From Halobaculum sp. MBLA0143 (GTDB taxonomy: Archaea > Halobacteriota > Halobacteria > Halobacteriales > Haloferacaceae), in assembly GCF_041361465.1 (NCBI RefSeq), contig NZ_JBGKAC010000001.1, positions 2,852,001 to 2,916,000 on the forward strand: a stretch of DNA of 64,000 nucleotides, written 5' to 3'. How positions within the stretch are numbered: position 1 is the first letter of the stretch; each line of letters opens with the position of its first letter. The notes under the pieces are model-generated. The model saw nothing but the letters and a program-made list of their open reading frames with translations. It ran no database searches and had not been told where the DNA came from. Made by a program: the position numbers and the translations under genes. This document shows positions 44,737-52,908 of this stretch, piece by piece.

Positions 44737-45717
44737 ATGACAGCGGAGCCAGCCGTCGTCTGTGAGGGGGTCGAACGGGCGTACGGCGACACCGTCGCGT
44801 TAGACGGCGTCTCGCTGGCGGTCGACGCCGGCGAGGTGTTCGGGCTCGTCGGGCCGAACGGTGCCGGCAAGACCACGCTCGTCCGGGCGCTCACGGGGAC
44901 GACGAGCGTCGACGGGACGGTCCGGGTGTTCGGCGAGTCGCCGACGGGCGTGGACCGCGCCCGGATCGGGCTGCTCCCCCAGGAGTTCGCGCCACCGAGC
45001 CGCCTCACCGTCCGGGAACTGCTCGCCTACTACGCCGGGCTGTACGACGATGCGCGGCCGGTCGACGCCGTGATCGAGGACGTGGGACTGACGGACGCCG
45101 CCGACACCTGGTACGAGGAGCTGTCGGGCGGGCAGCGCCGTCGCGCCTGCGTCGGTGCCGCGCTCGTCAACGATCCGGAGCTGTTGTTCTTAGACGAGCC
45201 GACGACCGGGATCGACCCGGCCGGCCGCCGCGCGGTGTGGCGGCTCGTGGAGTCGCTGGCGGCCGACGGCACGGCCGTCCTGCTGACGAGCCACTCGATG
45301 TCGGAGATCGAACGGCTGAGCGACCGGGTCGGACTGCTGCGCGGCGGGGAGTTGGTCGCCGTCGGCTCGCCGGCGGGGCTCGTCGCCGACCACGCCGGCC
45401 CAGCGCGGCTCGTCGTCGAGCCGGGCGAAGACACTCCCGCGAGCGCCGTCGCCGACGCGCTCCGGGACGCCGGCTTCACCGTGGCCGTCGGCGACGGTGA
45501 GGCGGCAGTCGAGGGGGTGGCGACGGCGGAGATCGGCAGCGCGGTGACGGCGTTGGACGACGCCGGGGTCGCCTACGGCGCGCTGACGTGGACGGAGCCG
45601 GGACTGGAAGACGCTTACCTCCGGCTCACGGGCGAGACGTTCGAGGGCCACCACCAGCCCGGGGCGAGCGTCGTCACGGGGGACGGCGACCGCGAGGAAC
45701 CGGAGGTGGAGGCGTGA
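44737..45717 (+). CDS. ABC transporter ATPase (ABC-2 exporter type)
   Basis: 326 residues. Walker A GPNGAGKTT (39-47), signature ELSGGQRRRACVGAAL, Walker B LLFLDEPTTGIDPAG, H-loop LLTSHSMSEIERLSD. A C-terminal ~100-residue accessory domain (HAGPARLVVEPGEDTPASAVADALRDAGFTVAVGDGEAAVEGVATAEIGSAVTALDDAGVAYGALTWTEPGLEDAYLRLTGETF) is typical of drug/peptide exporters. It overlaps the permease gene by 4 nt. Exporters of this class move drugs, lipids or modified peptides. The RiPP-like genes begin 63 bp after the permease, but from their own promoter. Confidence 0.88.
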   Translation: MTAEPAVVCEGVERAYGDTVALDGVSLAVDAGEVFGLVGPNGAGKTTLVRALTGTTSVDGTVRVFGESPTGVDRARIGLLPQEFAPPSRLTVRELLAYYAGLYDDARPVDAVIEDVGLTDAADTWYEELSGGQRRRACVGAALVNDPELLFLDEPTTGIDPAGRRAVWRLVESLAADGTAVLLTSHSMSEIERLSDRVGLLRGGELVAVGSPAGLVADHAGPARLVVEPGEDTPASAVADALRDAGFTVAVGDGEAAVEGVATAEIGSAVTALDDAGVAYGALTWTEPGLEDAYLRLTGETFEGHHQPGASVVTGDGDREEPEVEA

Positions 45718-46496
45718 GCCGTCTGGGTCGGATCCGGGCGGAGGCGACGGCCGCGACGCGGTCGTTCCTCCGACGGAAGACGGCGGTGTTCTTCACCTTC
45801 TTCTTCCCGGTGATCCTGGTGGTCGTGTTCGGCGCGCTCGTCCGGACTCGCCCCGGCGGTGGGGGGCTGTTCACCGCCCCGCCGGCGTACTACGTCCCGG
45901 GCTACCTCGCTACGGTCGTCCTGTTCACGCCGTTGTCCCGGATCGGGTCGGAGATCGCCCGTCACCGCGACGACCACCGGTTCGAGAAGCTGGCGACCAC
46001 GCCCCTGTCCCGCGCGGAGTGGCTGGCCGCCCACACGCTCGTCAACCTCGGCGTGATCGGCGTCGCGGCCGGGCTCATCCTGGGGCTCGTCCTGTCGTTG
46101 ACGGGCGCACAGATCCCGGTGTCCCCGGCGCTCGTGTTGCTCGTCCCGTTCGTCGTGCTCGCGGTCGTGTTGTTCTGTGGGTTCGGGGCCGTGCTCGGCC
46201 GGGTCGCCGACTCGCAGGACGGCGTGATCGCCGCCTCCAACACCGTGGCGCTCCCGCTGCTGTTCCTGTCGGACACGTTCGTGACGCCGTCGCTGCTGCC
46301 CTCGTGGTTCGGCACCGTTGAGTTCCTCTCTCCGCTCACCTACTTCGCCCGCGGCGTCCGGACGGTGACGTTCGTGCCGACCGGCACCGGCCTCCCGGCG
46401 CCGCCGCTGGGGACGACCGGAAACCTCGCGGTCCTGACGGCGCTGGCGGTCGTCGCCTTCGCCGCCGGTGCCGTCGCCGTCCCGCGGACGGAGTGA
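45714..46496 (+). CDS. ABC-2 type transporter permease
   Basis: 260 residues from GTG 45714. Six membrane helices; the pattern AEATAATRSFLRRKTAVFFTFFFPVILVVVFGALV, then PGYLATVVLFTPLSRIGSEIARHRDDHRFEKLATTPLSRAEWLAAHTLVN and LSDTFVTPSLLPSWFGTVEFLSPLTYFARGVR, identifies an ABC-2 membrane subunit (E-x-x-x-x-x-x-E-x-L-x-x-T-P motif). Coupled to the ATPase by GTGA overlap. It exports an unknown substrate; a neighbouring peptide is a possibility. Confidence 0.88.
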   Translation: MSRLGRIRAEATAATRSFLRRKTAVFFTFFFPVILVVVFGALVRTRPGGGGLFTAPPAYYVPGYLATVVLFTPLSRIGSEIARHRDDHRFEKLATTPLSRAEWLAAHTLVNLGVIGVAAGLILGLVLSLTGAQIPVSPALVLLVPFVVLAVVLFCGFGAVLGRVADSQDGVIAASNTVALPLLFLSDTFVTPSLLPSWFGTVEFLSPLTYFARGVRTVTFVPTGTGLPAPPLGTTGNLAVLTALAVVAFAAGAVAVPRTE

Positions 46497-46525: not shown

Positions 46526-46560
46526 GGTTTTATATCGCGGTAGCAACGACGGGTCGGGGA
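46526..46560 (+). promoter_or_regulatory. Promoter of the ATP-grasp/M50 pair
   Basis: GGTTTTATATCGCGG (around 46526-46540) contains a strong archaeal TATA sequence. It lies about 25-30 nt before the ATG at 46560, so the transcript is probably leaderless and independent of the ABC genes upstream. Confidence 0.6.
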
Positions 46561-47501
46561 TGACAGTACTCCTCGTCGGCAACTACTTCGGCCACGAGTT
46601 CGACGCGCTGGCGACGGCCGTCCGGGAACGCGGGACGGAGGCGGTGACGGTCGACACGGACGAGTGGCCCAGCGAGCGGCCGCTGACGCTCGACCCGGGC
46701 GCGGGCAGCCTCACCGTCGACGGGACGACGCTGTCCGTCGACGACGTGACGGGGGTGTTCGTCCGACACAACGGGCTGTTCGTCCCGGCGATCAGGGACT
46801 ACACGGACGGCGTCGTCAGCGAGGACGACAACCCGTACGCGGCACTCACCCAGCTCCGGGAGTACCGCGGGCTGTTCCGGAGCCTCCTGCGGACTGTCGA
46901 CGCCGCCGGCGGGACGGTGTTCCCGGGACTCGACGGGCTCCGGTGGCAGGAGACCAGCGTCGCCGCCTGCTGTCGACTGGGTGAGGCCGGGCTCCCGGTG
47001 CCGCCGTCGCTCGCCACCTCCGACACGGCCGCCGCCCGAGCGTTCCTGGAGCGACACGAGCGGGTCGTCTGCAAGCCGGTCGCGGAGTTCGGCGGCGTGA
47101 AGGCGCTGACGGCGGCGGACGCCGACGTCTTGGAGGGCCTGACCACGCCCGTGTTCCTCCAGGCGCTCGTCCCGGGCGACGACGTACGGTGTTACGTCCT
47201 CGACGGGGAGTTCCTGGGCGCCTTCGAGTACGTCTCCGACGTGGAGGGGTTCTCGTTCAAGACCGGCGACGAACACCCGGACGCGGTGCCGGCCGACCTC
47301 TCTGCCGCCGCCGTCGCGGACGTTCGGGAGGCGGTCGCCGTCTCGCCGATGCGGTACGCCGCCGTCGACCTCCGAGTGGACGGCGGCGACCACACTGTGT
47401 TGGAGGTGAACGCGGGCGGCCGGTTCGCGCTGGCGGACCGAAGCGGCGTGACGGACGTGACCGACGCGCTCGCGGACGCACTCGTCTCCGATGCGGGCTG
47501 A
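46560..47501 (+). CDS. MvdD-like ATP-grasp peptide ligase (RiPP maturase candidate)
   Basis: 313 residues. The N-terminal part has the layout of ATP-grasp RiPP ligases: VDTDEWPSERPLTLDPGAGSLTVDGTTLSVDDVTGVFVRHNGLF. The ATP-grasp core is present: K172 in VVCKPVAEFGGVKAL, FLQALVPGDDVRCYVLDGEFLGAFEY (R210), D270 in YAAVDLRVDGGDHTVLEVNAGGRFA with E282 and N284, the metal ligands. Homologues in graspetide pathways (MvdC/MvdD) join Asp/Glu side chains of a precursor to Ser/Thr or Lys. The gene overlaps the M50 protease gene by 11 nt. RimK-like ligation of another substrate is the alternative. Confidence 0.8.
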   Translation: MTVLLVGNYFGHEFDALATAVRERGTEAVTVDTDEWPSERPLTLDPGAGSLTVDGTTLSVDDVTGVFVRHNGLFVPAIRDYTDGVVSEDDNPYAALTQLREYRGLFRSLLRTVDAAGGTVFPGLDGLRWQETSVAACCRLGEAGLPVPPSLATSDTAAARAFLERHERVVCKPVAEFGGVKALTAADADVLEGLTTPVFLQALVPGDDVRCYVLDGEFLGAFEYVSDVEGFSFKTGDEHPDAVPADLSAAAVADVREAVAVSPMRYAAVDLRVDGGDHTVLEVNAGGRFALADRSGVTDVTDALADALVSDAG

Positions 47502-48510
47502 GACGGAACGCGAGGAGACGGCGTACGGGTTCAGTTGGTGCCTGACGGACGGCCAACACTACGTCCGCGCCCCGGACGGCGACGTACGGGCGGTCAACGG
47601 ACAGACGGTGGAACTCCTCCGGCTGTTCGCGACCGAGGAGTTGACACGCGAGGCGCTGTGTCGCCAGCGCGACGGCGGGGAGGCGGTGTTAGACGAGTCG
47701 TCGGCCGTCGACCCGGAGACGGTGATCGACCTGTTCGACCGGTACCGCGAGGACGGCTTCCTCCGGGAGGGGGAACCGGTGGTCAGGCTCCACCCGCCCG
47801 CAGAGGTACGGCTGTGGCCGCGTCTGCTGGCGACGCTGCTGGCCGTGGCGGCGCTCGTCGCCGTCGCCGTCGCGCGGGCGCCGGCCTTCCGGGCGCTCGC
47901 GGCCGACCCGCCGAGCCTCTGGCTCGTGGCGGCGTTGTTCCCCGCGACGCTCCCGTTCGTCGCCGTCCACGAGCTCGGCCACTACGCGACCGCCAGCCGC
48001 CACTTCGACTCGTCCATCCGGATCGACACGGTCAACGGGGTCGTCCCGGCGGTCGTCACCGACACCACCGGCGCGTGGCTGTTGCCGCGCAACAGGCGGG
48101 TGTGGATCAACGTCGCCGGCCCGCTGGCGGAGTCGCTGACGGCCCTCCCGGTCGCGGCGGCAGTCGCCGTCGGCGCCGGCGGGACGGCCGCACTCCTGGT
48201 GCTCGCGGCCGTGCTCTCGGACGTCGTCTTCGCGCTCAACCCGTTCTTCCACGGGGACGGCTACTGGATCGCCTCGGACCTGCTGGGCGTCGAGAACGTC
48301 CGGTCCCGCGGGCTCGACGCCGTCCGGCGCCGCGAGCTCACCTGGCCGGCCGTCTACGTCGTCGTCTCGTACGCCGTCGGGGCCGCCTTCGTGCTCCAGG
48401 TGGTCGTCGTGACGGTCCTCGTAGAAGGTGTTCGTGGCGTGGTCTACGCCGCGCCGGTCGTCCTGTTGGCCGCCCTCGCGTGGGCGGACGTCGACCTCCG
48501 GACGGCCTGA
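47491..48510 (+). CDS. RiPP-type M50 membrane metalloprotease with N-terminal PqqD-like region
   Basis: 339 residues. Residues 10-100 (YGFSWCLTDGQHYVRAPDGDVRAVNGQTVELLRLFATEELTREALCRQRDGGEAVLDESSAVDPETVIDLFDRYREDGFLREGE) look like a PqqD/RRE-type winged helix that binds leader peptides. The membrane part has the zinc motif H160-E-L-G-H164 (AVHELGHYATASRHF) and the distal NPFFHGDGYWIASDLLGVENVRSR (250-273), which strongly resembles the N-P-x-x-x-x-D-G-Y motif of 'putative peptide zinc metalloproteases' found with RiPPs. It probably cuts or processes a modified precursor at the membrane. Five or more helices. Intact active site. Confidence 0.83.
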   Translation: MRAETEREETAYGFSWCLTDGQHYVRAPDGDVRAVNGQTVELLRLFATEELTREALCRQRDGGEAVLDESSAVDPETVIDLFDRYREDGFLREGEPVVRLHPPAEVRLWPRLLATLLAVAALVAVAVARAPAFRALAADPPSLWLVAALFPATLPFVAVHELGHYATASRHFDSSIRIDTVNGVVPAVVTDTTGAWLLPRNRRVWINVAGPLAESLTALPVAAAVAVGAGGTAALLVLAAVLSDVVFALNPFFHGDGYWIASDLLGVENVRSRGLDAVRRRELTWPAVYVVVSYAVGAAFVLQVVVVTVLVEGVRGVVYAAPVVLLAALAWADVDLRTA

Positions 48511-48529
48511 CTGTGGTCGCGGTCGGCGA

Positions 48530-48631
48530 CTACAGCGCTTCGACGACGAGCGTGCTTCTCACCAGGGTACTGTCGCGGTCTTCTGCGGAGCGGTCCTCCA
48601 GTTCGTCGACGACGTGCTTGTCTTCGGACAT
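48530..48631 (-). CDS. 33-residue peptide, candidate RiPP precursor
   Basis: An ORF too short for standard calling: ATG at 48631, TAG at 48532-48530, verified codon by codon. The first 20 residues are highly charged (Asp/Glu/Lys/Arg/His), as in a leader; the last 13, STLVRSTLVVEAL, hold the tandem repeat STLV-R-STLV followed by a single Glu. Such a tail, with four hydroxyl residues and a nearby carboxylate, fits an ATP-grasp-modified peptide forming ester links. It converges with the M50 gene, stops 19 bp apart. A GAAATTACTTC element about 35 nt before the ATG, in an AT-rich stretch, is a plausible promoter. Not proven to be expressed. Confidence 0.55.
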   Translation of the reverse strand: MSEDKHVVDELEDRSAEDRDSTLVRSTLVVEAL

Positions 48632-48816
48632 CTGCAGTTTAGTCGATGATGCGCGGTTTGAAGTAATTTCTGCATTTGTGTTGCTCTATCAAGGCAGTAA
48701 CTATCGTGGGGTGGAGACAGCACCGTGACTTTTTGTCGGCCCGGCGCCCAGGAGGTTGACGTGACACGACGAGGTGGAGTCCGGACCACAGACGCGTCGG
48801 TCCGGGGTGGTGTGGC
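48632..48816. promoter_or_regulatory. Divergent promoter region of the small peptide and polD2
   Basis: The first ~60 bp are AT-rich and serve the minus-strand peptide. The remainder is GC-rich, with GGAGG at 48751-48755 upstream of the polymerase GTG. A 185-bp stretch with no other ORF that I can support. Confidence 0.4.
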
Positions 48817-51800
48817 GTGAGACCGGCCGACGAGCGGTACTTCGAACGGCTCGAAGAGCAGCTAGACGAGGCGTTCGACCGCGCACGGACCGCACGAGAG
48901 CGTGGGCTCGACCCGGAGCCGGAGATCGAGATCCCGGTCGCTCGCGACATGGCCGACCGCGTGGAGAACATTCTGGGGATCGACGGGGTCGCCGAGCGGG
49001 TCCGGGAGCTGGAAGGGGAGATGGCCCGCGAGGAGGCTGCGCTCGAACTCGTGACGGACTTCGTCGAGGGCACCGTCGGCGACTTCGACACCCCGGCCGG
49101 CAAGATCGAGGGAGCGGTCCGGACGGCGGTCGCGCTGCTGACCGAGGGCGTCGTGGCGGCGCCCATCGAGGGGATCGACCGGGTCGAACTGTTGGACAAC
49201 GACGACGGCACTCAGTTCGTCAACGTCTACTACGCCGGGCCGATCCGGTCTGCGGGCGGCACCGCACAGGCGTTGTCGGTCCTGGTGGCCGACTACGCCC
49301 GGTCGTTGCTCGACATCGCGGAGTTCCACCCCCGCGACGCCGAGGTGGAGCGGTACGCCGAGGAGACCGACCTGTACGACTCCGAGACCGGGCTCCAGTA
49401 CACGCCCAAGTCGGAAGAGACGAAGTTCATCGCCGAGCGGATGCCGATCATGCTGGACGGGGAGGCTACCTCCGACAAGGAGGTGTCCGGCTTCCGCGAC
49501 CTCGAACGGGTCGACACCAACTCCGCTCGCGGGGGGATGTGTCTCGTGCTCGCGGAGGGAATCGCGCTGAAGGCCCCGAAGATCCAACGGTACACCCGCC
49601 AACTCGACGAGGTGGACTGGCCGTGGCTCCAGGACCTCATCGACGGCAACTACACGGACGACGCGGACGACGAGGACGAGGCGACAGGCGACGAGACGGC
49701 GTCGGACGCGGACGACCCGGACGACACGGAGGCGGCCACGGAGGGGCCGCCGCGGCCGGAGCCCAGCGAGAAGTTCCTCCGGGACCTGATCGCCGGTCGC
49801 CCGGTGTTCGGTCACCCCTCCGAGCCGGGCGGCTTCCGGCTCCGCTACGGTCGGGCGCGCAACCACGGGTTCGCCACTGCCGGCGTCCACCCGGCGACGA
49901 TGCACCTCGTCGACGACTTCCTCGCCACCGGCACCCAGATCAAGACGGAACGGCCGGGGAAGGCCGCGGGCGTCGTCCCGGTGGACTCCATCGAGGGTCC
50001 GACCGTCCGGCTGGCCAACGGCGACGTGCGCCGGATCGACGACCCCGAAGAGGCGCTCGAGGTCCGCAACGGCGTCGAGGAGATTCTGGATCTCGGCGAG
50101 TACCTCGTCAACTACGGGGAGTTCGTCGAGAACAATCACCCGCTCGCGCCCGCCTCCTACACGGTGGAGTGGTGGATCCAGGAGTTCGAGGCCGCCGGCG
50201 CGGACGTGCAGGCGCTCCGGGACGACCCGACGGTGGAACTGGACGATCCGGATCCCGAGGAGGCGCTGTCGTGGGCAGAGTCGTACGACGCCCCGCTACA
50301 CCCGAGTTACACCTACCTCTGGCACGACGTGTCCGTCGCCGACTTCGAGGCGTTGGCCGCGGCCGTCGCCGACGGCGAGGTGACCGGCGACGTGCTCGTG
50401 ATCGAACACACGGACCGGGTCGCACACACACTGGAGTCGTTGTTGGTCGAACACTCCCGAACGGCCGACGCCGTCCGGATTCCGGCGTTCCGGCCGTTCC
50501 TGCGACAGCTCGGCGTCACCGACGGCCTCTCCCGGACCTGGGAGACGCTCCCGGAGGCGGCCCGGACGTACGACGACGGCGACAACGCGATTCGCGCCGT
50601 CGGCGCCGTCGCGCCGTTCCGGGTCCGCGAGCGGGCGCCCACCCGGATCGGCAACCGGATGGGCCGCCCGGAGAAGTCGGAGTCCCGGGAGCTGTCGCCG
50701 GCCGTCCACACCCTGTTCCCCATCGGTGAGGCCGGCGGGAGCCAGCGCTCCGTCGGCGAGGCGGCCCGCACCCGGACGGACGCCGGTCGCGGCGTGATCG
50801 AAGCCCGGGTCGGTGACCGCACGTGTCCGGACTGTGAGAGTCACACCTACGAGCTCCAGTGTCCCGACTGCGGCAGCCACACGGAGCCGTACTACGAGTG
50901 CCGGGACTGCGGAACGGTGTGTGAGCCGGACGAGTCCGGCCGCGTCCTCTGTGACCACTGTGACCGCGAGGTGGAGAGCCCCCGGGAGTTCACGGTCGAC
51001 CTCAACGCCGAGCTCGCCGACGCCTTGGACGCGATCGACGAACGCGAGGGGGCGTTCGAGATGCTCAAAGGCGTCAAAGGGCTGTCGTCGGCGGACAAGA
51101 CTCCGGAGCCGTTGGAGAAGGGCGTGCTCCGTGCGAAACACGGCGTCTCGGCGTTCAAGGACGGCACCGTCCGGTACGACATGACGGACCTGCCGGTCAC
51201 CGCGGTCCGGCCGTCGGAGCTGGACGTGACTGCCGGCCACTTCCGGCAGTTGGGCTACGAGACGGACATCGACGGGGAGCCGCTGCGTCACGACGACCAA
51301 CTGGTCGAGCTGAAGGTGCAGGACGTCGTGTTGTCCGACGGCGCGGCCGAACACATGATGAAGACGGCCGACTTCGTGGACGACCTGCTCGAACGCTTCT
51401 ACGGACTGGCACCGTTCTACGAGGTGAACGAGCGGGACGACCTCGTCGGCGAACTCGTCTTCGGGATGGCCCCACACACGAGTGCGGCCGTGGTCGGCCG
51501 GGTCGTCGGCTTCACCTCCGCGGCCGTCGGCTACGCGCACCCGTACTTCCACGCCGCGAAGCGTCGGAACTGCTTCCACCCGGGCACGAAACTGTGGTAC
51601 GAGGACGGGTCTGGCTCGGTCCACCACGAGCGAATCGAGACGTTCGTCGAGCGGTATCTGGACGAGGAGACCGCAGACAGCGACGACTTCGGAGCGCTCG
51701 TCTCCGAACTCGACGACGTGGACGTGACGGTTCCCTCGGTGACGGCCGACGGCGAGGAGGTCCGCCGCCCAGTCGAGGCGGTGAGCAAACACCCCGCGCC

Positions 51801-52908
51801 GGACCACCTGATCGAGGTGCGCGCGGAGGGTGACCGGTCGCTGACTGTGACGCCGGACCACTCGCTGCTCGTCGCCCGCGACGGCGAGATACAGCGCGTC
51901 GACGCCCGGGACCTCGCCGTCGGCGACGACCTCCCGGTGCCGGCGACTCGCGGCGGCGCGCTCGCGGCCGACACGAGCGCCGACGTGACTTCCGACGCCG
52001 AACGGGACGACCCCGACCCCCGACGAGCCACCCCCGACGGGGGCGTCCCGACGGCGACGGTGACGGACACGGAGATCGTCGCGGGCGACACGACACACAC
52101 CTACAACCTCACGGTCGCTGGAACGCACACGCTCGTCGCCGAGGACACACACGTCGCCCAGTGTGACGGCGACGAAGACTGCGTAATGTTACTGCTAGAC
52201 GGCCTTCTCAACTTCTCTGAAACGTTCTTGCCAAACCAACGCGGCGGAAAAATGGACGCGCCCTTAGTGATGTCTTCCCGGATCGACCCGACGGAGATCG
52301 ACGACGAGGCGCACAACATGGACATCGTCGACCAGTACCCTCCGGAGTTCTACGAGGCGACCCGCGAGCAGGCGGACCCGGAGACGGTCGACGTCCAGAT
52401 CGCCGAGGAGACGCTGGACACCGCCAACCAGTACCACGGGTTCGACCACACCCACGACACGACGGACATCCACATGGGGCCGTCGCTGTCGGCGTACAAG
52501 ACGCTCGGATCGATGATGGACAAGATGGACGCTCAACTCGACCTCTCGCGGACGCTCCGGGCCGTCGACGAGACGGACGTGGCCGAACGGGTGATCGAGT
52601 ACCACTTCCTCCCGGACCTGATCGGCAACCTCCGGGCCTTCTCCAGCCAGGAGACCCGGTGTCTCGACTGCGGCGAGAAGTACCGCCGAGTGCCGCTCAC
52701 CGGTGACTGCCGCGAGTGCGGCGGCGACGTGAACCTCACCGTCCACCGTGGCTCCGTCAACAAGTACATGGACACCGCCCGCCAGATCGCCGAGGAGTTC
52801 GACTGCCGCGAGTACACGAAACAACGCCTGGAGATCCTCGACCGCTCGCTGGAGTCCATCTTCGAGAACGACAACAACAAACCCACGAGTATCGAGGACT
52901 TCATGTGA
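48817..52908 (+). CDS. polC: DNA polymerase D large subunit (DP2) containing an intein
   Basis: 1363 residues (1166 after removal of the intein at 919-1115). Start GTG 48817. DP2 signatures: NVYYAGPIRSAGGTAQALSVLVADYAR, RGGMCLVLAEGIALKAPKIQRYTRQLDEV, RMGRPEKSESREL, zinc ribbons CPDCESHTYELQCPDCGSHTEPYYECRDCGTVC...CDHC, and YAHPYFHAAKRRN|CDGDEDCVMLLLDGLLNFS, in which the intein splits the catalytic region, then QRGGKMDAPLVMSSRIDPTEIDDEAHNMD. A C-terminal zinc ribbon (CLDCGEKYRRVPLTGDCREC) ends the protein. It forms the replicative PolD with DP1. An acidic insert (~280-310) is halophile-specific. Confidence 0.95.
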   Translation: MRPADERYFERLEEQLDEAFDRARTARERGLDPEPEIEIPVARDMADRVENILGIDGVAERVRELEGEMAREEAALELVTDFVEGTVGDFDTPAGKIEGAVRTAVALLTEGVVAAPIEGIDRVELLDNDDGTQFVNVYYAGPIRSAGGTAQALSVLVADYARSLLDIAEFHPRDAEVERYAEETDLYDSETGLQYTPKSEETKFIAERMPIMLDGEATSDKEVSGFRDLERVDTNSARGGMCLVLAEGIALKAPKIQRYTRQLDEVDWPWLQDLIDGNYTDDADDEDEATGDETASDADDPDDTEAATEGPPRPEPSEKFLRDLIAGRPVFGHPSEPGGFRLRYGRARNHGFATAGVHPATMHLVDDFLATGTQIKTERPGKAAGVVPVDSIEGPTVRLANGDVRRIDDPEEALEVRNGVEEILDLGEYLVNYGEFVENNHPLAPASYTVEWWIQEFEAAGADVQALRDDPTVELDDPDPEEALSWAESYDAPLHPSYTYLWHDVSVADFEALAAAVADGEVTGDVLVIEHTDRVAHTLESLLVEHSRTADAVRIPAFRPFLRQLGVTDGLSRTWETLPEAARTYDDGDNAIRAVGAVAPFRVRERAPTRIGNRMGRPEKSESRELSPAVHTLFPIGEAGGSQRSVGEAARTRTDAGRGVIEARVGDRTCPDCESHTYELQCPDCGSHTEPYYECRDCGTVCEPDESGRVLCDHCDREVESPREFTVDLNAELADALDAIDEREGAFEMLKGVKGLSSADKTPEPLEKGVLRAKHGVSAFKDGTVRYDMTDLPVTAVRPSELDVTAGHFRQLGYETDIDGEPLRHDDQLVELKVQDVVLSDGAAEHMMKTADFVDDLLERFYGLAPFYEVNERDDLVGELVFGMAPHTSAAVVGRVVGFTSAAVGYAHPYFHAAKRRNCFHPGTKLWYEDGSGSVHHERIETFVERYLDEETADSDDFGALVSELDDVDVTVPSVTADGEEVRRPVEAVSKHPAPDHLIEVRAEGDRSLTVTPDHSLLVARDGEIQRVDARDLAVGDDLPVPATRGGALAADTSADVTSDAERDDPDPRRATPDGGVPTATVTDTEIVAGDTTHTYNLTVAGTHTLVAEDTHVAQCDGDEDCVMLLLDGLLNFSETFLPNQRGGKMDAPLVMSSRIDPTEIDDEAHNMDIVDQYPPEFYEATREQADPETVDVQIAEETLDTANQYHGFDHTHDTTDIHMGPSLSAYKTLGSMMDKMDAQLDLSRTLRAVDETDVAERVIEYHFLPDLIGNLRAFSSQETRCLDCGEKYRRVPLTGDCRECGGDVNLTVHRGSVNKYMDTARQIAEEFDCREYTKQRLEILDRSLESIFENDNNKPTSIEDFM
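51571..52161 (+). mobile_element. Mini-intein in DP2
   Basis: 197 residues (C919 to Q1115 of the precursor). Block A begins CFHPGTKLWYEDGSGSV; block B is SLTVTPDHSLLVARDG (T-x-x-H present); then LAVGDDLPVPA and, at the C-terminus, TTHTYNLTVAGTHTLVAEDTHVAQ, so the last residue is Gln, not Asn, before the Cys of the C-extein (CDGDEDC). No homing endonuclease domain fits in the space, only an acidic linker. Inteins at this PolD site in other archaea also may end in Gln. Splicing is probably active. Confidence 0.9.

Follow-up and report, generated by a model that had tools for sequence, protein, structure and literature searches.

Organisation of the locus

The window (the whole 64,000-nucleotide stretch of Halobaculum sp. 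MBLA0143 DNA that was analysed) carries, on the forward strand, a gene for a 313-residue PsnB-like ATP-grasp ligase of the graspetide-synthetase type (46560-47501), assigned from phmmer, NCBIfam, tree and residue-conservation results. Its 3' end overlaps by 11 bp the 5' end of a gene for a 339-residue MpaP-like M50 intramembrane metalloprotease (47491-48510), which was assigned from the NCBIfam daptide_HExxH model and an AF2 model with a PDB fold match. Convergent to this pair, on the reverse strand at 48530-48631, lies a 33-codon ORF encoding MSEDKHVVDELEDRSAEDRDSTLVRSTLVVEAL, whose N-terminal part is acidic and whose tail reads STLVRSTLVVEAL; this is the predicted precursor peptide gene. The original prediction had described the ligase, the overlapping protease and the convergent ORF, and its description and coordinates are accurate. 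The TATA box that it placed 5' of the enzyme genes reads TTTATAT (46529-46535, forward strand). The centre of this box is 28 bp 5' of the ligase ATG, a spacing that would fit a leaderless transcript. Nearly every locus checked has an AT-rich box ~26-34 bp ahead of the ligase ATG, and such a box at promoter distance is usual for the precursor gene and for the ligase gene, each separately. The precursor is usually its own transcription unit, on the strand opposite to the enzymes, a feature that speaks against a single pathway of the kind proposed below.

Beyond these genes, a 1363-residue ORF occupies 48817-52908 on the forward strand. By eye it looks like the large subunit of DNA polymerase II split by an intein (CFHPGTKLWYEDG ... 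HNLTVAGTHTLVAEDTHVAQC), and homologues 66-88% identical over the first 300 residues are present in 12/12 related genomes searched.

The ATP-grasp ligase

The best PDB match of the ligase (phmmer, residues 4-310, E 3.3e-24) is 7drm, the plesiocin cyclase PsnB (PMC10452190), with MdnB, AMdnB and CdnC next. In NCBIfam the ATP-grasp ribosomal peptide maturase model TIGR04187 comes first (E 2.8e-19), with a score of 69.5 that is far below the curated cut-off of 350 bits. The ATP-grasp residues K172, R210, D270, E282 and N284 are all retained. In an IQ-TREE phylogeny the archaeal ligases group with PsnB, MvdD and TgmB, and a branch with support of 100/99 separates them from the RimK-type enzymes; the grouping with RimK that would have spoken against the original prediction is absent. 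The ligase had been called MvdD-like, but PsnB and TIGR04187 are closer relatives of it than MvdD is.

The ligase also shows generic similarity to the RimK, LysX and MptN profiles of NCBIfam, in which the ribosomal-peptide-maturase models score best. This similarity is what an amino-acid ligase of the RimK/LysX/MptN type would give, with the protease and the small ORF as chance neighbours. We regard that reading as extremely improbable: RimK-type function is ruled out by the 100/99 branch, the ligase-protease pair recurs in 13 genomes of several families, and the precursor tracks the pair.

Three Halorussus loci (L063:7688-9663, L139:6008-7990 and L141:6021-7980) have tandem ligase genes with a single precursor, an arrangement that recalls the MvdC/MvdD pairs of microviridin clusters.

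The M50 protease and its N-terminal domain

The MpaP model (daptide_HExxH, NF041824) matches residues 85-281 of the window protease (E 5.9e-15; score 55, far below the curated cut-off of 300 bits) and matches 14/14 protease orthologues; the LiaK/YydH model NF058609 matches 12 of the 14. Both zinc motifs of M50 proteases, HExxH and NP...DG, are present and invariant in the 14 orthologues. The first is HELGH at residues 160-164 (47968-47982, forward strand), with H160, E161 and H164 invariant. The second, the third zinc-ligand motif of M50, is NPFFHGDGY at residues 250-258 (48238-48264, forward strand), with P251, G255, D256 and G257 invariant; this is the C-terminal NP-x4-DGY motif noticed at the outset. 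The AF2 model (pLDDT 86) has the M50 protease SpoIVFB as its best PDB match (prob 1.00). In a profile comparison of the orthologues the protease is nearer to RiPP leader proteases than to RseP, and a Streptomyces MpaP is among its best bacterial plasmid matches. MpaP has been described as an RRE-dependent intramembrane peptidase that removes the daptide leader (PMC10036551).

Residues 1-100 of the protease (47491-47790, forward strand), folded alone, give an AF2 model with pLDDT 90.9 in which strands are followed by three helices. Foldseek places lasso-peptide B1 proteins (TbiB1 / lasso B1) in complex with leader peptides at PDB ranks 1, 2, 3, 6 and 14, with weak E values of 0.1-0.8. We model this region, from AF2 and Foldseek, as a PqqD/RRE-like predicted leader-binding fold on fold matches of that E range. 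The PqqD-like N-terminus of the original prediction is thus retained as a modelled fold, to which five of the 14 best PDB matches, all lasso B1, point, but with E values of only that order and no match found to Pfam PqqD.

The predicted precursor peptide

Using a profile from 17 other loci, the window ORF ranks 1/1287 among candidate small ORFs (all starts; E 0.038), more than chance would give for the charged, leader-like sequence that had drawn attention to it. With held-out profiles, each built without the tested locus and its near copies, the predicted precursor ranks first in 18/18 loci, window included, and out of sample it is the top match at 6/6 further Halorussus ligase loci (L136-L141, E 4e-11 to 4e-4). 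A same-leader ORF is conserved beside the orthologous enzyme genes, as the original prediction required. A genome-wide precursor model, in which the window row is included, matches the window ORF with E 6.8e-10. An ORF of 30-47 residues with the same leader is present at 16 of the first 17 new ligase loci, examples being MNDDSKHLIGELEDSQVTERESTALPSCISVEML (L061), MKHFVEDLNESDVEDVENRTNTVVSTPITWFGG (L064) and MSSNDDDTVHFVEDLEERSNAAPMVTTMALGEEGATTMACFETGC (L082). The exception, L075, has a distant ligase without a protease. At L138, L140 and L065 the protease is absent beside the ligase and precursor. Judged by these comparisons and by codon conservation in a sister genome, we take the 33-codon ORF to be a real gene.

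L075 (6691-7647, genome G380) encodes a divergent, low-GC ATP-grasp relative adjoining a methyltransferase, with no recognisable precursor, and is probably a separate, horizontally acquired system.

The predicted leader comprises precursor residues 1-19 (48575-48631, reverse strand), with the motif xHhhxELE...ER, in which H6 and R19 are nearly invariant in the alignment. The archaeal leaders carry [KDE]H[FYV][VI]E.L, with a proline in some only, and their alignment shows no evident Phhx(1,2)h motif like that of bacterial graspetide leaders. That helix motif is found in about half of bacterial graspetide precursors (PMC8939145), and because it is not universal among graspetides its absence here is not decisive. 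A phmmer search of PDB chains with two archaeal precursors gave no match to PsnA2.

The sister genome G401, of the same genus, allows leader and core to be compared at the codon level. Its locus (L157:4123-7787) runs from ABC genes through a ligase remnant (~67 residues matched) to sensor-kinase and response-regulator genes, which replace the protease, and on to a persisting precursor ORF, MSVPENNHVVDELEDRSAEGRDSTHLTSIFAEPL, with a GTG start. Over the 17 leader codons shared with the window there are six synonymous changes and one non-synonymous change, and the core has substitutions and an indel. Purifying selection thus acts on the leader and the core is free to change, the pattern expected of a RiPP precursor. 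A second ligase of G401 is intact and may have a divergent precursor of its own (E 0.13).

Distribution and gene neighbourhood

Among 391 Halobacteria genomes, ligase (E < 1e-25) and protease (E < 1e-30) were found in exactly the same 13. The precursor model matches those 13 and one borderline genome, G202 (E 6.5e-4); since the model was built from the same loci this co-occurrence is partly circular, and the held-out and out-of-sample tests provide the independent evidence. A phylum-wide draw of genomes gave no new carriers. Named carriers are Halorussus litoreus, H. amylolyticus, H. salilacus, Halocatena salina, Halopiger djelfimassiliensis, Natronolimnohabitans and Halovivax, and several of the hosts are haloarchaea in cultivation (Halorussus, Halocatena, Halopiger and Halovivax). 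Neither of the two public plasmid gene tables checked, one from H. salina and one from H. salilacus, lists the precursor gene; both tables are known to be incomplete. Two scans of IMG/VR found no relatives, and a viral origin was rejected.

No gene family beyond ligase, protease and precursor is common across the subclades. The original prediction had suggested export by the ABC genes just upstream (44737-46496), and this we abandon: at 23 other loci no homologue of the permease occurs, the ATPase matches there are distant paralogues, and in the sister genome the ABC genes stand beside a ligase remnant. The ABC pair is local to the genus of the window and is probably not part of the system.

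Nor was a conserved exporter or immunity gene found at the loci. Signalling is a frequent role of M50 proteases, and the small ORF could instead encode an acidic regulator or a membrane-protein partner, as a pro-peptide substrate of regulated intramembrane proteolysis, which the ligase modifies for signalling; the lack of an exporter or immunity gene and the promoter-like box that the precursor usually has to itself would both fit. A constant leader with a fast-changing core that includes an indel is, however, typical of RiPP products and not of regulators, and the protease is nearest to RiPP leader proteases rather than RseP. We consider a regulatory role very unlikely.

One further haloarchaeal locus, L144:4663-7534 (genome G278), has an MvdD-like ATP-grasp gene with no M50 protease, directly 3' of a gene for a trypsin-like protein. 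The long tail of this protein consists of repeats (KNKFTDE..., DRRKATGLDK), and it could be a protease-fused graspetide precursor.

Core sequences and proposed ring chemistry

In graspetides the donor residues lie ahead of the acidic acceptor (PMC7823629). The predicted core in the window, DSTLVRSTLVVEAL (48533-48574, reverse strand), has Ser/Thr donors followed by one Glu acceptor. Compared with ESTALPSCISVEML (L061) and ESTIVVSCHVIDVQ (L136), the cores of this subclade keep ST, S and one acid (E, E and D) at one position. A donor at least three positions ahead of an acidic residue is found in 19 of the 24 predicted cores, window included. The cores of the sister subclade, VTTMAMGEEVG (L068), PTTLAVGEEGG (L073) and VTTMALGEEGATTMACFETGC (L082, TTMALGEEGATTMACFETGC), share the paired-Thr/paired-Glu layout of plesiocin. 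Plesiocin forms two adjacent esters per repeat (PMC12291112). The cores of L069, L070, L071, L072 and L080 end in GECPEKC[WS], and their two cysteines suggest a disulfide or a further crosslink.

The remaining five cores (L064, L066, L079, L137 and L138) have no donor followed by an acidic acceptor, which leaves them with no obvious side-chain ester; in L064 and L079 the core has no acidic residue at all. Among the points that the graspetide reading leaves unexplained, this is the chief one. These five loci would be accommodated if the system were a RiPP pathway in which the ligase performs chemistry other than side-chain cross-linking, for example use of the C-terminal carboxylate (giving a side-chain-to-tail lactone), activation of a leader acid, or amino-acid addition. 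The protease would then free a short C-terminal product as in the pearlins, where the C-terminal modified residues of peptides are clipped off by the M50 proteases TglG and TmoG (PMC10885120). Against this, the nearest relative of the ligase, PsnB, is a cyclase that forms esters, and the window subclade keeps its acid after a conserved Ser/Thr. In addition, we noticed no PEARL (lantibiotic-dehydratase-like) enzyme at the loci, where conservation of any other gene family stops at close relatives. We judge such chemistry quite unlikely. It is also rather unlikely that these genes form a haloarchaeal RiPP class of their own, in which a PsnB-like ligase links peptides of 30-40 residues with no need for a core Asp or Glu (e.g. 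through the C-terminal carboxylate) and an RRE-guided intramembrane protease releases them with no separate exporter.

A proposed haloarchaeal graspetide pathway

That the three genes make and process a modified peptide, as originally proposed, is supported by their joint conservation, their enzyme families and the leader-core architecture computed here. Precursor, ATP-grasp ligase and M50 protease are likely to constitute a minimal graspetide-type RiPP pathway, and the set very probably makes a small cyclised peptide. Most likely these loci represent a graspetide family of haloarchaea whose leader protease, of the M50/RRE type, is dedicated to it.

Which bond is formed, where the leader is cut, which way the product leaves and what it does are inferred. 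Binding of the 33-residue precursor would be by way of its leader (KHVVDELEDR...), which is acidic and helical. The ligase would phosphorylate a core side-chain carboxylate, Glu31 in the window, and the activated Glu31 would form an omega-ester ring with the hydroxyl of a Ser or Thr at residues 21-22 or 26-27, with the loss of 18 Da. The membrane-bound protease would use its N-terminal RRE-like domain to hold this leader too and would remove it within or at the membrane, with the cut expected close to a conserved [EDNS]R-x-[NS]-[TA] site, and may also release the product outward. By default, we would guess that the product is a secreted protease inhibitor or an anti-archaeal peptide.

Graspetides are essentially a bacterial class. 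A 2025 survey of archaeal RiPPs covers lanthipeptide, YcaO, radical-SAM and lasso types and leaves graspetides unmentioned (PMC12144867), and a 2026 graspetide survey has one archaeal group, predicted in Thermoprotea (PMC13097080). The original prediction knew of no characterised archaeal example. In the open-licence literature we likewise found no haloarchaeal or characterised archaeal graspetide, although that predicted Thermoprotea group exists and an earlier report elsewhere is possible. The loci described here offer a complete and testable three-gene archaeal pathway with ~24 precursor sequences, and haloarchaea have reportedly served as hosts for the heterologous expression of archaeal RiPP clusters (PMC12144867). 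They also lead us to propose a dedicated leader protease for graspetides, whose leader peptidases were called unknown in a 2022 phylogenomic survey that does not name M50 proteases (PMC8939145).

Comparison with known systems

One of the closest known systems is that of plesiocin (PsnB/PsnA2), a group 2 graspetide of Plesiocystis pacifica. PsnB is the best solved relative of the archaeal ligase, TTxxxxEE-like units occur in the sister archaeal cores, and most archaeal loci have one ligase per precursor. The archaeal precursors differ in their length of 30-47 residues, with one or two units and a different leader, and the archaeal loci have a dedicated M50/RRE protease and no C39 peptidase-transporter. 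The actinobacterial TgmB (GRASP_SAV_5884, TIGR04187) provides the best-scoring NCBIfam model for the ligase, and annotated tgmA-tgmB-tgmC operons of Streptomyces are among the bacterial plasmid matches of the sister-locus ligase L068, but no methyltransferase (TgmC/PIMT) is conserved at the archaeal loci. The archaeal graspetides predicted as group 36 in the 2026 RODEO survey (Thermoprotea; PMC13097080) belong to another archaeal class and co-occur not with an M50 protease but with a chromosome-segregation-like protein.

On the protease side, the daptide peptidase MpaP (NF041824) is homologous over residues 85-281. Daptides carry the C-terminal chemistry of MpaABCDM, whereas the partner of the haloarchaeal protease is an ATP-grasp ligase, and no other gene family, daptide genes included, is conserved beside it across the subclades. 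EpeP/LiaK is likewise an M50 protease in a RiPP cluster, to which the NF058609 matches of the orthologues relate, and has been proposed to cleave and export its peptide (PMC10885120); the epipeptides, however, are formed by radical-SAM epimerase chemistry and not by an ATP-grasp enzyme.
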